Source: Paenibacillus sp. JZ16 (GTDB lineage: Bacteria > Bacillota > Bacilli > Paenibacillales > Paenibacillaceae). Taken from it: DNA of 64,000 nt. A program made the position numbers and the translations under genes. Below the pieces are notes generated by a model. The model ran no database searches and had not been told where the DNA came from. It saw nothing but the letters and a program-made list of their open reading frames with translations. Below, piece by piece: positions 36,313 through 62,181 of the stretch (the first letter of the stretch is position 1; every line of letters starts with the position of its first letter). Location: NCBI RefSeq assembly GCF_015326965.1, contig NZ_CP017659.1, positions 1,550,001 through 1,614,000 of the forward strand, given 5' to 3'.

Positions 36313-36425
36313 ATTAAAAACATAAAGAGGCAAGGCGACTAATCGTCTCCTTACCTCTTGCCCAGGCGTACGGCATATGATCCTATGTGCTCCCTCTTGG
36401 TACCCCAAGCTACGCCAGTAACACA
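36313..36425 (-). promoter_or_regulatory. ZTP (pfl motif) riboswitch of folD with terminator platform
   Basis: On the minus strand the aptamer (36360-36420) begins ACTGGCGTAGC, has an internal GGGAGC, and ends with the hallmark CCGTACGCCTGGGCA. It is followed by a hairpin AAGAGG-AAGG-GAC / GTC-CCTT-CCTCTT (36325-36359) and a U-rich tail (36311-36320), a terminator whose 5' arm adjoins the CTGGGC strand. This is the known layout of ZTP switches: ZMP or ZTP binding stabilises the aptamer and prevents termination, raising FolD when 10-formyl-folate is short. Confidence 0.85.
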
Positions 36426-36490
36426 CAGATAACTTTTTTTAAATATACCACGACTTTGGACTTCGCGCTACCGGTCATGAAGTTCACCTA

Positions 36491-46666: not shown

Positions 46667-46730
46667 AATACGGCGGGACAAGGGTTTATGGGCTCCGTTT
46701 AATTAGCAATGCATACTGCTCCAAGACGCT

Positions 46731-46909
46731 GGTAAAAAACAATTAAGCCCATTTATTCACTTTTCGGCTCGCATTCGGCTGTGGTTTAATATAGTTGTCA
46801 GGCCGGACAAAATGATCGGAAAGGAGGCTGAACGAATTGATTCAGAATATGGAGGTGGCATCCGCATAAGCGGGTGTCACGTTTAGGGGAGCCCGTTATA
46901 GGGCTCCCT
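46731..46909 (+). ncRNA. Three-copy peptide-RNA element, copy 1
   Basis: Order: conserved box GGTAAAAAACAATTA (46731-46745); -10 region TGGTTTAATATAG near 46782-46794; hairpin 1 TTGTC/GACAA (46795-46810); AAAGGAGG (46820-46827); a 10-residue frame (46837-46869); hairpin 2 (46855-46880) with the stop codon in its loop; hairpin 3 GGGAGCCC/GGGCTCCC (46886-46909). The distance from the upstream box to the start codon is 106 bases, with 105 and 106 in the other two copies. No -35 box is conserved, so an activator may bind the upstream box. I know of no named family with this form. Confidence 0.75.
46837..46869 (+). CDS. Conserved 10-residue peptide MIQNMEVASA (copy 1)
   Basis: TTG start nine bases after AAAGGAGG. 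The frame is MIQNMEVASA and stops at TAA, in the loop of hairpin 2. The second copy reads MIQNMEVTSA and the third MIQIREVVFA; the third has ATG at the same place, which confirms the start. The codons of the last residues also build the hairpin, so both peptide and RNA seem selected. Function unknown. Confidence 0.6.
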   Translation: MIQNMEVASA

Positions 46910-46944
46910 TTCATTTACAATCCGATAGCATTGGAGAAATGATT

Positions 46945-47490
46945 ATGTCACATACATCTGAACCAGCCGTTATTATTGTCACTGGTGTCATGGCTTCCGG
47001 TAAATCGACGGTAGCCCAGCTGCTGGCCGAGAAATTTGAACGCGGAGTCCACTTGAGGGGAGACGCGTTTCGGAGAATGATTATCAAGGGCAGGGAAGAA
47101 ATGCTTCCGGATGCTTCAGACGAAGCAAAACGGCAGCTTGCCCTGCGCTACAGATTATCGGCCTCCACTGCCAGAACCTATGCTGAAGCGGGTTTTCATG
47201 TCGTCCTCCAGGACGTCATTCTCGGCCCCGCGCTGCTGCAAATAACCGAAATGCTAAACGGCCTTCCCGTTTACGTCGTTGTGCTGAACCCATCTGAGAA
47301 TGCCATCAGCGCACGCGAGCAGATTCGTAACAAAAAAGGCTACGGGGTATGGACCATCCATGAGCTGAACCGGCGTTTGAACGACGAAACGCCGAGAATC
47401 GGCATGTGGCTGGATACCTCCGATTTATCTCCGGAAGAGACCGCCCAAGAGATTTGGAAGCGGATATGGAACGAGGGGCAGATCCGCTAA
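46945..47490 (+). CDS. P-loop kinase-like protein (AAA_33 / chloramphenicol phosphotransferase-like)
   Basis: 181 residues from ATG 46945 (GGAG eight bases upstream; an ATG at 46939 is too close). The P-loop is GVMASGKS (residues 14-21) and VHLRGDAFRRM fits a substrate-binding loop. The fold is that of small nucleotide or antibiotic kinases; substrate not recognised. The gene sits between copies 1 and 2 of the peptide-RNA element, each in the same orientation, and copy 1 could act as its leader. Confidence 0.72.
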   Translation: MSHTSEPAVIIVTGVMASGKSTVAQLLAEKFERGVHLRGDAFRRMIIKGREEMLPDASDEAKRQLALRYRLSASTARTYAEAGFHVVLQDVILGPALLQITEMLNGLPVYVVVLNPSENAISAREQIRNKKGYGVWTIHELNRRLNDETPRIGMWLDTSDLSPEETAQEIWKRIWNEGQIR

Positions 47491-47524
47491 CATAAACCCG
47501 GTATCATTCATGACAAGAATTCCT

Positions 47525-47702
47525 GGTAAAAAACAATTATGCCTGTTTATTCACTTTAGTCCTGCAGCCGGCCGTGGTTTAATATAGATGTCCGGCTGGA
47601 CCAAATGATCGGAAAGGAGGCTGAACGAATTGATTCAGAATATGGAGGTGACATCTGCGTAAGCGGATGTCACGTTAAGGGGAGCCCTCTATAGGGCTCC
47701 CC
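47525..47702 (+). ncRNA. Three-copy peptide-RNA element, copy 2
   Basis: Same order as copy 1 with a 48-base identical core from the AAATGATCGG before the ribosome site to the GAGGTG codons. Hairpin 1 is GTCC-GGCT-GGAC (47590-47601). Hairpin 2 (GTGACATCTGC / GCGGATGTCAC) has the loop GUAA, a GNRA-type tetraloop that includes the stop codon. Hairpin 3 is GGGGAGCCCT / AGGGCTCCCC (47679-47702). There is no gene downstream on this strand, so it cannot be only a leader. Confidence 0.75.
47630..47662 (+). CDS. Conserved 10-residue peptide MIQNMEVTSA (copy 2)
   Basis: TTG at 47630-47632, nine bases after AAAGGAGG, ending at TAA 47660-47662. Differs from copy 1 by one residue (Ala to Thr at position 8) while the third-base changes keep the pairing of hairpin 2. 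Confidence 0.6.
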   Translation: MIQNMEVTSA

Positions 47703-47713
47703 TTCATTTCATT

Positions 47714-59096: not shown

Positions 59097-59762
59097 TTAT
59101 ACGATGCCATGCTTGAGCGCATAAATGGCCGCCTGAGTCCGGTCCGCAACCCCCAGCTTATCGAGCAGATGGCTGACATGGGTTTTAACTGTCTTCTCGG
59201 TAATATAAAGCGCTTCGCTGATTTCCCTGTTGTTCATGCCCGATGCAATCAGCTGTAATACTTCCTGCTCCCGGCGGGTAAGTTTATCCACCTGCGCAGT
59301 CTCTTCCTGATGGCCGGACCCGCCGGTCTCATCCGTCCCCGCCGGTGAAGTAACATGCGTCATGAGCAGGCCTGCCGCATCCGGATGCAGTTCAACTTGG
59401 CCTTCATACACGCGTCTGATCGCAGCCACCAGATCCTCAGGCTCAATATCCTTAAGGAGATAGCCGCGTGCGCCCGCCCGAATGGCTGGCAGCACATGGT
59501 CATAATCGATAAACGAGGTCAGCACGATGACTTTAATATGAGGCTGTTCTTTTTTTAACCGTGCGGTCGTATCGATTCCATTGAGAATCGGCATATTCAG
59601 ATCCATTAACACGACATCGGGATTCAGCTGATTGGCCTTCTCTAACGTTTCCTCGCCATTCGCGGCTTCGCCAACCATCTCGATATCCGGCTGCGTAGCC
59701 AGAAAAACCTGCAATCCCCGTCGTACCATGGCATGATCGTCAGCGATCAACAATCGGATCAT
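59097..59762 (-). CDS. NarL/FixJ family response regulator
   Basis: 221 residues. Receiver domain with Asp54 (VVLMDLNMP) and Lys in YLLKD; LuxR-type helix-turn-helix in LTRREQEVLQLIASGMNNREISEALYITEKTVKTHVSHLLDKL. The start overlaps the histidine kinase gene by 23 bases, the usual order for this pair. Its regulon is unknown. Confidence 0.93.
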   Translation of the reverse strand: MIRLLIADDHAMVRRGLQVFLATQPDIEMVGEAANGEETLEKANQLNPDVVLMDLNMPILNGIDTTARLKKEQPHIKVIVLTSFIDYDHVLPAIRAGARGYLLKDIEPEDLVAAIRRVYEGQVELHPDAAGLLMTHVTSPAGTDETGGSGHQEETAQVDKLTRREQEVLQLIASGMNNREISEALYITEKTVKTHVSHLLDKLGVADRTQAAIYALKHGIV

Positions 59763-61458
59763 CGGTGATCCCCCTATTCTCTATTGATCTCACCCTTAAG
59801 GGCAGCGAAACCTCAATAATGGTTCCCTCTCTGTACACACTGTATAGACGGAATTGTCCTCCGAGCGATTCCGCCCGTTCCCGCATGCTGGACAACCCAA
59901 TCGAATGTCTTGTCAGCTCGTTCAATCGTTGCTTGGAAATCCCGCGGCCATGATCTTCGATCCTGAGTTCAACTTCATTTTCCCGCGGGGTTAATACGAC
60001 CGTTACTTCCTTCGTATCCGCATGCTTGCTTACATTATTCAGCGCCTCTTGACCGATCCTCCACAATGTTTCTTCCACGATCCGGGGCAGGTCCCGTATC
60101 CCGTTGATATGTGAGCTTACATGAAGTTTCAATCGTTCGCCGTATTGTTTCAGGCCTGTCATAAGCCCTTCTTCAAGTCCGGGTGGGCGAAGCTGCATGA
60201 TCAGCTCCCGCATTTCCTTAAGCGCGCTTTGCGACAGGACCTGTATATCATGGATGGTGTCCTGCAGCATACTTGTCTGCTCATGCGGCTCTGCGGCAAG
60301 CATTCCCCGCACTCCCTTGGACATCATGACCAGCGAGAACAGGGTTTGGCTTACCGAGTCGTGCAGGTCCCGGGCGAGACGATTTCGTTCATCCATTCTT
60401 GCGAGCTCCCGCCGGTTTTGCTCCAGACGGATGCGTTGAAGGGTCATGCCAATATGTTCAGCCAGTGCCTCGATCACCTCGATATCTGCCCGGTACGAAT
60501 CGCCGTAATGATCGAACCCTACTAAAAGCAGTCCAAATGAGGTGTCCCCGGCAGCCGCCAGCGGAACCGCAACCGCTCGGGAGATGGAGGATATCCATCC
60601 CTGTTCAACCAAAAGATCTGCAAGCCGCTGTGCGTCTTCTGCACTGACCGGGTGCGAATTGACCTCTCCCTTGCCAGAACGGGTTCGTGCGGCTTCAGCA
60701 AGCGGAAATTTGGCATGGGGCAGCGTCGTCTGCCCTCTGCTGTAGAGGGCACGCAGCGTCACTTCGCTGCCGATAGGCTCCAGCAATGCGGCAACCGGCC
60801 AGTCAAAGTAACGGCCCATTAAACTCATGACTTGCTTCGTTAATTCAGCCCGGTTAACCGCTTGGGAAGCATAAGCACCGAGTGCGCTGCTATATTCCCC
60901 AAGCCGGGCAAACAAATCCGCTCGGCGCTGCTCGGCTGCGTATAGCCGCATGCGCTCAATGGCGCTGCCGATTTGGTAGGCAACCGATTCCAGCAGCGCC
61001 AGTTCCTCTTTGGTGAAATGCAGTTTCCCGGGTGCAGCCACATTTAGTACGCCGAACCTGCGGCTGCCGGATCGCAGCGGAACGGTTGCATGGTGGGTTA
61101 TGCCTTCCGTATCCCCCCACTGGTAACGAACGGCGTTATCCAGACGTTTGCAATTCAATATGTTCACGGCATTTTTCAGACGTCCGTCATCGTAACGCTC
61201 CAGGCACCAGCAGCTGCCGCATCTCATAGGTTCGTTGTCGTTCCGGCTCAGGGCAGGCGGCAAATTCCGGCTGGCTACGAATTCATGCGTTCCCCGATCT
61301 TCCACCAGGAACAGCCAACCGGTCGTAAGTCCGGTCAGCTCCAGCAGCTTGGTAATAACAACGTCCAGCATGGGGCCAAGCTCATTGGACTCGTTCAATG
61401 TTTCTGCGATCGTCTTCAGCGTAATTAACTCCTGAATATGCGGATCGTGATTGGACAT
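59740..61458 (-). CDS. GAF-domain sensor histidine kinase with four-Cys cluster (AirS/YhcY-like)
   Basis: 572 residues from ATG 61458 (AAGGAG upstream). The first GAF domain contains CGSCWC (Cys80, Cys83, Cys85) and a later NCK (Cys103). A second GAF-like region follows, then the HisKA_3 domain (MDERNRLARDLHDSVSQTLFSLVM) and the ATPase domain. No transmembrane helix was seen, so it is cytosolic. The four-Cys pattern is similar to the redox-sensing AirS family, which holds an Fe-S cluster. Confidence 0.88.
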   Translation of the reverse strand: MSNHDPHIQELITLKTIAETLNESNELGPMLDVVITKLLELTGLTTGWLFLVEDRGTHEFVASRNLPPALSRNDNEPMRCGSCWCLERYDDGRLKNAVNILNCKRLDNAVRYQWGDTEGITHHATVPLRSGSRRFGVLNVAAPGKLHFTKEELALLESVAYQIGSAIERMRLYAAEQRRADLFARLGEYSSALGAYASQAVNRAELTKQVMSLMGRYFDWPVAALLEPIGSEVTLRALYSRGQTTLPHAKFPLAEAARTRSGKGEVNSHPVSAEDAQRLADLLVEQGWISSISRAVAVPLAAAGDTSFGLLLVGFDHYGDSYRADIEVIEALAEHIGMTLQRIRLEQNRRELARMDERNRLARDLHDSVSQTLFSLVMMSKGVRGMLAAEPHEQTSMLQDTIHDIQVLSQSALKEMRELIMQLRPPGLEEGLMTGLKQYGERLKLHVSSHINGIRDLPRIVEETLWRIGQEALNNVSKHADTKEVTVVLTPRENEVELRIEDHGRGISKQRLNELTRHSIGLSSMRERAESLGGQFRLYSVYREGTIIEVSLPLRVRSIENRGITDDPIVDR

Positions 61459-61580
61459 ACACGAAAGCTCCTTCTTTTTTTGCATTCTGAAGTAACTATA
61501 TTATATAATCCTGTCACGTACCATCAAAATGCCTATGGAACCCTTCGGACGTTTCTCAATTCATTCACCCCATGAATTTT

Positions 61581-61758
61581 GGTAAAAAACAATTAATATT
61601 GTTTTATCTCTTGCAAATTCCCACCTACATATGGCTTAATATAGAAGTCGGGGCCGACGAAATGAGCTGAAAGGAGGCTGATTGCAATGATTCAGATCCG
61701 TGAGGTGGTATTCGCGTAAAGCGAATATCCGTTAAAATGGGAGCCCGCTGCGGGCTCC
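61581..61758 (+). ncRNA. Three-copy peptide-RNA element, copy 3
   Basis: The most diverged copy. Upstream box GGTAAAAAACAATTA is intact; the -10 region is TGGCTTAATATAG. Hairpin 1 is GTCGG/CCGAC (61647-61658). AAAGGAGG precedes an ATG with the same nine-base spacing. Hairpin 2 GGTATTCGC/GCGAATATCC has one bulged base and GUAAA in the loop. Hairpin 3 is GGGAGCCCG/CGGGCTCCC. It is 14 kb from the other two and precedes the CD3324-like gene. Confidence 0.72.
61687..61719 (+). CDS. Conserved 10-residue peptide MIQIREVVFA (copy 3)
   Basis: Proper ATG start, stop TAA in the hairpin 2 loop. Residues M1, I2, Q3, E6, V7 and A10 are the same in all three copies although the RNA changes around them. This is the best evidence that the frame is used. 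Confidence 0.6.
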   Translation: MIQIREVVFA

Positions 61759-61831
61759 CTATATCTATTTTTAAATCCAACAACTCAAAAAATCCAAAAA
61801 AAACCAATATCACGAAAGGAGGAGGGCAAGC

Positions 61832-61969
61832 ATGATCAATACAATTGTTTTGAAACTCAGCGATAGCTTAAATATGTATACAGAAAGAGGAGGGCATCGA
61901 TGGGCCATTACAAAAACGGAAGAGAAGTGCTTCCCCCCGAGCTGCTGCAGCAAATTCAACAGTATATAG
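61832..61969 (+). CDS. Possible 45-residue small protein overlapping the CD3324-like gene
   Basis: AAAGGAGGAGGG lies directly upstream of ATG 61832. The frame runs for 45 codons, through the start of the CD3324-like gene in another frame, ending at TAG (61967-61969). The product (MINTIVLKLSDSLN...) has no known family and its C-terminus is forced by the overlap. It might be a leader or regulatory frame; coding is not proven. Confidence 0.3.
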   Translation: MINTIVLKLSDSLNMYTERGGHRWAITKTEEKCFPPSCCSKFNSI

Positions 61970-62181
61970 ATGGAGAATTACTCTACATACCGAAACAGAG
62001 CGAGCAAAGAGCCGGCTGGGGAGAGTTAAGCGGTTCCAAACAACGCATCGAAAGTCGAAATAAAGAAATGTATCGCGCTTATTGCAAAGGACGGTCCATT
62101 GAGGAATTGGAACGGACCTACTTCCTGTCTGGAGAAAGCGTGCGCAAGATCATAAGTAAACTTACCCGCGTAGGGACCTGA
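61900..62181 (+). CDS. CD3324 family protein (small DNA-binding type)
   Basis: 93 residues. MGHYKNGREVLPPELLQQIQQYIDGELLYIP is the standard family opening, followed by a helix-turn-helix-like end (CKGRSIEELERTYFLSGESVRKIISKL). AGAGGAGGG lies before the ATG. Members are thought to be Mor-like transcription factors. It is downstream of copy 3 of the peptide-RNA element. Confidence 0.85.
   Translation: MGHYKNGREVLPPELLQQIQQYIDGELLYIPKQSEQRAGWGELSGSKQRIESRNKEMYRAYCKGRSIEELERTYFLSGESVRKIISKLTRVGT

Follow-up and report, generated by a model that had tools for sequence, protein, structure and literature searches.

Among described systems, ribosome-mediated leader or attenuator RNAs, which include erm, vmlR and similar cases, share with the element analysed here a Shine-Dalgarno (SD) site, a short ORF with a hairpin across its final codons, a terminator-like hairpin and a gene downstream. 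In ComRS and Rgg-SHP systems, a regulator gene stands beside a boxed promoter for a tiny ORF of which extra copies occur, and here too a tiny ORF with a boxed promoter lies by a regulator gene and recurs in extra copies. Minigenes, or mini-ORFs, are exemplified by the lambda bar RNA. The axe-txe minigene mg2 is reported to act in regulation as a translated ORF of only a few codons, with the peptide itself mattering little (PMC8708949). For the promoter, the nearest parallel is phage Mu, whose activator Mor is described as binding two 5-bp inverted repeats within a 16-bp element at -43.5 and as taking the place of the -35 (PMC4390567).

We analysed a 64,000-nt stretch of the Paenibacillus sp. 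JZ16 genome (contig NZ_CP017659.1, positions 1,550,001 to 1,614,000, forward strand; hereafter the window), in which a sequence-only reading had pointed out three copies of a repeated RNA element. The copies sit where that reading had placed them and have the parts it listed. With up to three mismatches allowed, the upstream box TGGTAAAAAACAATTA has just three starts in the whole window, at 46730, 47524 and 61580. Counted from the T of TGGT to the start codon's first base, the spacing is 107, 106 and 107, and the 105 or 106 bases given earlier reflect a difference in counting. UAA lies in the loop of hairpin 2 in all three copies, and base changes between copies do preserve pairing, a G-U pair of copy 1 being A-U in copy 2. 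Each of the three transcripts is predicted to fold better than 200 of 200 shuffled versions (z of -4.9, -6.9 and -3.4). The features are as follows, the -10 hexamers of copies 1 and 3 and the -35-like hexamer of copy 3 being assigned from sequence:

46738..46753, + strand: copy 1 box, a 16-bp imperfect 5-6-5 inverted repeat, AACAATTAAGCCCATT
46785..46790, + strand: copy 1 -10, TTTAAT, preceded by TGG; no -35 hexamer recognised by eye
46797..46808, + strand: copy 1 5′ hairpin, GTCAGGCCGGAC
46819..46831, + strand: copy 1 Shine-Dalgarno region, GAAAGGAGGCTGA
46837..46869, + strand: copy 1 ten-codon frame, MIQNMEVASA, start TTG, stop TAA
46852..46857, + strand: copy 1 internal SD-like GAGGTG, invariant
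46855..46880, + strand: copy 1 hairpin 2, loop containing the stop codon
46886..46908, + strand: copy 1 terminator-like hairpin, poor in its U-tract
46939..47490, + strand: CPT/AAA-like kinase gene 3′ of copy 1 and on the same strand; its position relative to the copies differs among genomes
47532..47547, + strand: copy 2 box, 16 bp
47578..47583, + strand: copy 2 -10, TTTAAT; no -35 hexamer recognised by eye
47590..47601, + strand: copy 2 5′ hairpin, GTCCGGCTGGAC
47630..47662, + strand: copy 2 frame, MIQNMEVTSA, start TTG, stop TAA
47645..47650, + strand: copy 2 internal SD-like GAGGTG
47648..47673, + strand: copy 2 hairpin 2
47677..47704, + strand: copy 2 terminator-like hairpin; an orphan copy, the next gene being convergent
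61588..61603, + strand: copy 3 box, AACAATTAATATTGTT
61611..61616, + strand: copy 3 -35-like TTGCAA
61635..61640, + strand: copy 3 -10, CTTAAT, 18 bp from the -35-like hexamer
61647..61658, + strand: copy 3 5′ hairpin, GTCGGGGCCGAC
61687..61719, + strand: copy 3 frame, MIQIREVVFA, start ATG, stop TAA
61702..61707, + strand: copy 3 internal SD-like GAGGTG
61707..61730, + strand: copy 3 hairpin 2
61739..61759, + strand: copy 3 terminator-like hairpin, poor in its U-tract
61832..61969, + strand: ORF2, a short ORF out of frame with CD3324 that overlaps the CD3324 start
61900..62181, + strand: CD3324-family gene (NF040785), Pfam Mor, 93 aa; the likely activator partner

A comparison of genomic contexts showed that, across genera, elements like copy 3 are followed by a gene of the CD3324 family (NF040785; Pfam Mor). 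The sequence-only reading had missed this link, as well as the imperfect 16-bp 5-6-5 inverted repeat within the box. Copies 1 and 2 have no adjacent CD3324 gene; their 3′ neighbours are the kinase-like gene and a convergent gene, respectively. A GAF-domain histidine kinase and a LuxR-type response regulator are encoded divergently from copy 3 (59097-61485, - strand), and we do not favour this two-component system as the regulator, as it adjoins the element in only part of the relatives.

The element extends well beyond the window. In the whole 7.42-Mb genome, a strict core pattern, a first covariance model and a broader model alike find exactly three matches, and copies do exist in related genomes: we gathered about 100 relatives from four families of Bacilli, with up to three copies per genome. 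Of 100 genomes scanned in the genus, 14 had a match to the core pattern, 12 of which proved genuine on inspection (G064 and G088 were spurious); in a scan of the family the pattern matched 44 of 394, spurious genomes included. A looser pattern applied to a collection of named species returned 24 stretches, 23 from Paenibacillus and one from Methylomicrobium that we take as chance. We used 61 leaders (as we call copies upstream of CD3324) to build a second covariance model, which matched 28 of 398 genomes across the class at E <= 0.01 and 21 at E < 1e-10. All 21, some of which had contributed sequences to the model, have a match within ~600 nt upstream of a CD3324 gene (families f1, f2, f20 and f42); the seven genomes with weak matches alone (E 0.001-0.008) were left uncounted and are taken as chance. 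Two loci depart from the usual arrangement: at L081 (G010) a single CD3324 gene is preceded by a tandem pair of leaders spaced 337 nt apart, and L288 (G739, family f42) shows a weak second match to the model (E 5e-5) just downstream of a CD3324 gene, with no readable EV frame. The looser pattern found no match in a collection of viral contigs, and we reject a phage origin on that ground.

The larger alignment also covaries. Across 84 distinct leaders, the eight pairs of the hairpin 2 core are 97.1% paired, with compensatory change at six, and the three pairs at its base are 71.0% paired with none; the four pairs of the 5′ hairpin are 95.2% paired, and a single sequence has a compensatory change, at one of them. 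The covariation score of the whole structure is 0.328, compared with 0.184 for shuffled alignments and 0.05-0.10 when the structure is slid along the alignment. An unguided consensus fold recovers both hairpins and the terminator-like hairpin, with compensatory change at 13 of its 20 pairs. Covariation and the presence of copies in four families lead us to reject a chance repeat.

In line with the sequence-only reading, which knew of no family with this layout, our Rfam and literature searches turned up no description of the element. Against Rfam 15, only a ZMP-ZTP riboswitch reaches its gathering score in the whole window (36353-36432, - strand), away from the copies. Two lesser matches, retrieved with E values up to 5, were dropped as identities: BSnc120, on the minus strand of copy 1 (31 bits, gathering score 114), and sbrA, on the plus strand at copy 2 (21.6 bits, gathering score 45). 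Literature searches found no study of the CD3324 family, no work on Mor activators in Firmicutes and, among the matches listed for Paenibacillus small RNAs and leader peptides, no description of the element. A P. riograndensis transcriptome study does report unknown intergenic transcripts (PMC5670726).

We then asked what is conserved in the ten-codon frame. Our search required a start codon, Glu-Val and a stop codon in frame, and allowed any synonymous Glu-Val pair (GA[AG]GT[ACGT]). The frame has ten codons in 90 of 95 leaders, which start with TTG (59), ATG (27) or GTG (9) and stop with TAA (84) or TAG (11). TGA, also allowed, never occurs in leaders, yet it ends 64 of 221 neighbouring ORFs. 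Within the set of 84 leaders, frame length is 33 nt in 79, 36 nt in three and 30 nt in two. Frames passed in 59 of 60 CD3324 upstream regions, synonymous Glu-Val codons were never seen though allowed, and an earlier leader set, found through its SD region and start codon, shows the same frame. On these grounds the frame is very likely translated.

Selection appears to act mainly on the RNA. On a tree of the 84 leaders, GAGGUG, nine bases before the stop, has undergone no change at any of its six positions; in mechanically called ORFs nearby, GAG makes up 50% of Glu codons and GTG 31% of Val codons. Codons 2-5, 8 and 10 each change 14-26 times at the third position, and codons 2-5 vary at all positions. 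Codon 9 changes 1, 9 and 2 times at its three positions and codon 10 changes 0, 10 and 26 times; with bases 1 and 3 of codon 9 and base 1 of codon 10 nearly fixed, GAGGUG is not the sole fixed part and the tip of the stem is partly fixed as well. The stop codon switches between TAA and TAG 11 times at its third base and never changes at its second. UAA and UAG are the stops read by release factor 1 (RF1), so the invariant GAGGUG and the restriction to these two stops suggest selection mainly on bases, and on either an RF1-read stop or the loop. The "conserved 10-residue peptide" of the sequence-only reading thus does not hold up in relatives: residues 3-5 vary widely, and Glu-Val is fixed as bases, with no synonymous change in 84 leaders. 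On this evidence we regard the element as a genuine RNA family that is very likely translated and apparently has not been described before.

The fixed position of GAGGUG relative to the stop codon suggests a role at termination. GAGGUG matches the complement of the canonical 3′ tail of 16S rRNA, the anti-SD; a search of the genome sequence did not find this tail pattern. When the stop codon occupies the A site, there are eight bases between GAGG and the codon in the P site; in copies 1-3, nine lie between GGAGG and the start codon. In predicted folds the terminator stem is kept in 78 of 84 leaders when the RNA is free, in 80 with a ribosome at the stop and in 82 with a ribosome at initiation; a footprint modelled on the stop necessarily spans hairpin 2, such that loss of this hairpin is built in. 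Stop and terminator stem are 13-25 nt apart in 83 of the 84 leaders and 33 nt apart in one. Given the retained stem and this distance, a ribosome sitting on the stop codon would keep hairpin 2 from closing and leave the terminator untouched. In sequence and position, GAGGUG looks like an SD site that would hold a terminating ribosome and so keep hairpin 2 open. Both the fixed spacing of the invariant GAGGUG before a UAA or UAG stop and the footprint geometry strengthen the earlier suggestion, in which the hairpin could respond to ribosomes as they complete the peptide.

What might switch the element on? CD3324 of the window passes the Pfam cut-off for Mor (33.2 bits against 24.9, E 5.7e-8), Mor being the only Pfam domain found in its 93 aa, and it matches two PHROGs named "late transcriptional activator". 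Its predicted model (mean pLDDT 76.5) has three C-terminal helices and matches Mu C and Mor weakly (E 0.2-0.6) and other helix-turn-helix proteins equally; a PDB sequence search with CD3324 at E up to 1 gave no match. The box, a 5-6-5 element of 16 bp at a set position, is centred on TTATA in most leaders. At least four of five half-site pairs form in 27 of 84 boxes, compared with 1.7% at other fixed offsets; when a shift of 4 either way is allowed freely, the box reaches 29 of 84 and two control places 14 and 9. Half-site covariation beyond shuffles was not seen in the 84 leaders. A genome-wide search for the box with up to three mismatches gave five forward matches, three of them the copies themselves, and the control searches gave 3 + 3; we therefore do not claim the box as a marker of a wider regulon.

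These features resemble phage Mu with its Mor and C activators and its middle promoter Pm (PMC4390567): CD3324 falls within Pfam Mor, the box likewise fits two 5-bp repeats, 6 bp apart, into 16 bp, and copies 1 and 2, like Pm, lack a recognised -35. Unlike the Mor site described there, the box here lies ~7-8 bp further upstream and its repeat is imperfect. Unlike Mor and C, CD3324 genes are chromosomal in Bacilli and the putative target is a small RNA gene. We infer from this likeness that the CD3324 protein may bind the box and activate the promoters of the element.

Genomic association supports the pairing of element and regulator within one branch of the CD3324 family. Relatives of the copy 3 CD3324 protein occur in 334 of 394 genomes of the family scan. 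A leader was present in all 14 CD3324 upstream regions read first and, among 60 further regions belonging to one CD3324 subclass and hand-picked from the best-scoring places among the matches listed, in 59, one of them divergent (L180); the sole exception, L201, shows no 5′ hairpin either. Two spurious rows (L034 and L036) were dropped before counting, and L180 was kept out of the set of 84. In a class-wide sample of 26 loci (of 30 fetched), the eight with a leader within 600 nt all belong to subclass Y[KV]NG..(L/F)PP, and the 18 without belong to other CD3324 subclasses. Of 20 more regions, three have a genuine leader, again of this subclass or close to it. No leader was found in the fetched upstream stretch of the three other CD3324 paralogs of this genome (G000:C1 1263895, 1315520 and 7036537).

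In the window, ORF2 (61832-61969, + strand) has its own SD and overlaps the CD3324 start out of frame. A short overlapping ORF of this type precedes CD3324 in 72 of 74 loci, suggesting that CD3324 may be translationally coupled to ORF2.

We put at about one in two the probability that each copy is a separate small-mRNA gene, activated by CD3324, that acts through ribosome capture at its stop codon and has its output in trans. In this model, a copy would be expressed as a short, structured, translated RNA of ~120 nt, with the 5′ hairpin near the likely transcript start, once CD3324 protein binds the box and switches the RNA gene on; in the window's clade, transcription running on past the RNA gene would then also supply CD3324, a positive feedback. 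A ribosome would load on the SD, read ten codons and reach the stop, where its anti-SD would pair with GAGGUG at an initiation-like spacing, so that it lingers and hairpin 2 stays open. On its departure, hairpin 2 would close. The output would be the ribosome-occupied as opposed to the closed RNA, acting in trans, rather than the sequence of the peptide. Like the minigenes axe-txe mg2 and lambda bar, it would be a tiny ORF whose translation serves regulation and whose peptide is of little consequence; the element differs in having ten codons instead of two, a nearly fixed length, a fixed internal SD-like motif, a hairpin with the stop in its loop, and a gene of its own.

The main alternative, which we consider unlikely, is that the element is a cis-acting leader, in which translation of the ten codons sets readthrough into CD3324 as in ribosome-mediated attenuation. 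Its layout, a short ORF with an SD and a terminator-like hairpin ahead of a gene, fits an attenuator, and the synteny with CD3324 in 59 of 60 regions, the poor U-tracts of the terminator-like hairpins in the window's clade and the same-strand kinase gene just downstream of copy 1 are all consistent with it. Predicted pairing is less so. Among the 84 leaders, the stability of an upstream duplex is within 3 kcal/mol of that of the terminator hairpin in 15, leaving some room for control in cis, but equals or exceeds it in only 6, and on this count we dropped an antiterminator as a general feature.

The gap between leader terminator and CD3324 points in both directions. We searched it for TATAAT or TATACT, which are hexamers and not mapped promoters, and compared the counts with 500 mononucleotide shuffles. 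Gaps of at least 90 nt contain such a hexamer in 46 of 59 cases (shuffled mean 9.5, maximum 21), which argues against a leader; the 14 shortest gaps (<90 nt), those of the window's clade included, contain none (~0.8 expected by chance). Copy 3 and CD3324 are accordingly separated by no -10-like hexamer that we could find, so that a leader role is possible in this clade. Retention of CD3324-less copies in several genomes, one ending against a convergent gene, further argues for a unit that stands by itself. For 13 such copies (78 pairs), the transcript has a mean identity of 0.88 and the box one of 0.90, compared with 0.64 for the upstream and 0.70 for the downstream flank, in a comparison that pooled copy-1-like and copy-2-like places, whose flanks are non-homologous. 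The element thus differs from erm- and vmlR-type attenuators in lacking a general antiterminator pairing, in the -10-like hexamer before the downstream gene in the longer gaps, in its conserved copies without a downstream gene and in the invariant internal SD-like motif before the stop.

In the gaps of one genus (g15; L136-L138, L142, L143, L150, L164, L170, L199), a second promoter-like stretch precedes CD3324, with an ACGG-N6-CCGT inverted repeat and TATACT or TATAAT nearby; a run of six T lies in the gap in seven of the nine loci. This stretch may be a second operator or an attenuator.

A little less probable again is that the element exists to make its decapeptide, which would act without a leader as a signal or regulator and be encoded beside its regulator gene in a layout like that of ComRS or Rgg-SHP. 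The nearly fixed frame length with start and stop codons, the adjoining activator gene, an isoleucine at position 2 in 65 of 79 leaders and the C-terminal pattern EV[VIA][SF][AV] are in line with this reading. The synonymous fraction in codons 2-5, 0.29 against 0.18 expected, leans the same way, although the pairs are non-independent and the signal is weak at most. However, residues 3-5 are nearly free, Glu-Val is fixed at the level of bases and the rest of the C-terminal pattern falls in a covarying stem. Ten residues also leave no room for a signal sequence. Furthermore, in contrast to the regulators of ComRS and Rgg-SHP, which are of the RRNPP type, CD3324 is Mor-like: Mor alone was found in it by Pfam, and no TPR peptide-binding domain. 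Conservation here is mainly at the level of RNA.

Finally, a non-coding base-pairing small RNA with an incidental frame would suit a unit that stands alone in most lineages and reaches three copies per genome, but is very improbable given the frame in 59 of 60 upstream regions with its start free among ATG, GTG and TTG, and given that the conserved unpaired bases are SD-like and would probably make a poor seed for mRNA pairing.

Returning to the reading of each copy as a CD3324-activated gene with an output in trans, one may go further and regard the transcripts as dedicated ribosome-catching RNAs: tiny mRNAs induced by a phage-type activator, with a strong SD for loading and a second SD at the stop that would hold each ribosome once it has read the ten codons. 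Present in number, they would titrate ribosomes or sense slow RF1 termination. We treat this extension as a long shot. The element itself is a conserved RNA gene of four families of Bacilli for which no Rfam family reaches its gathering score, and it is a candidate target for the CD3324 regulators. Its layout offers a direct way to ask whether bacteria hold terminating ribosomes through internal SD sites.
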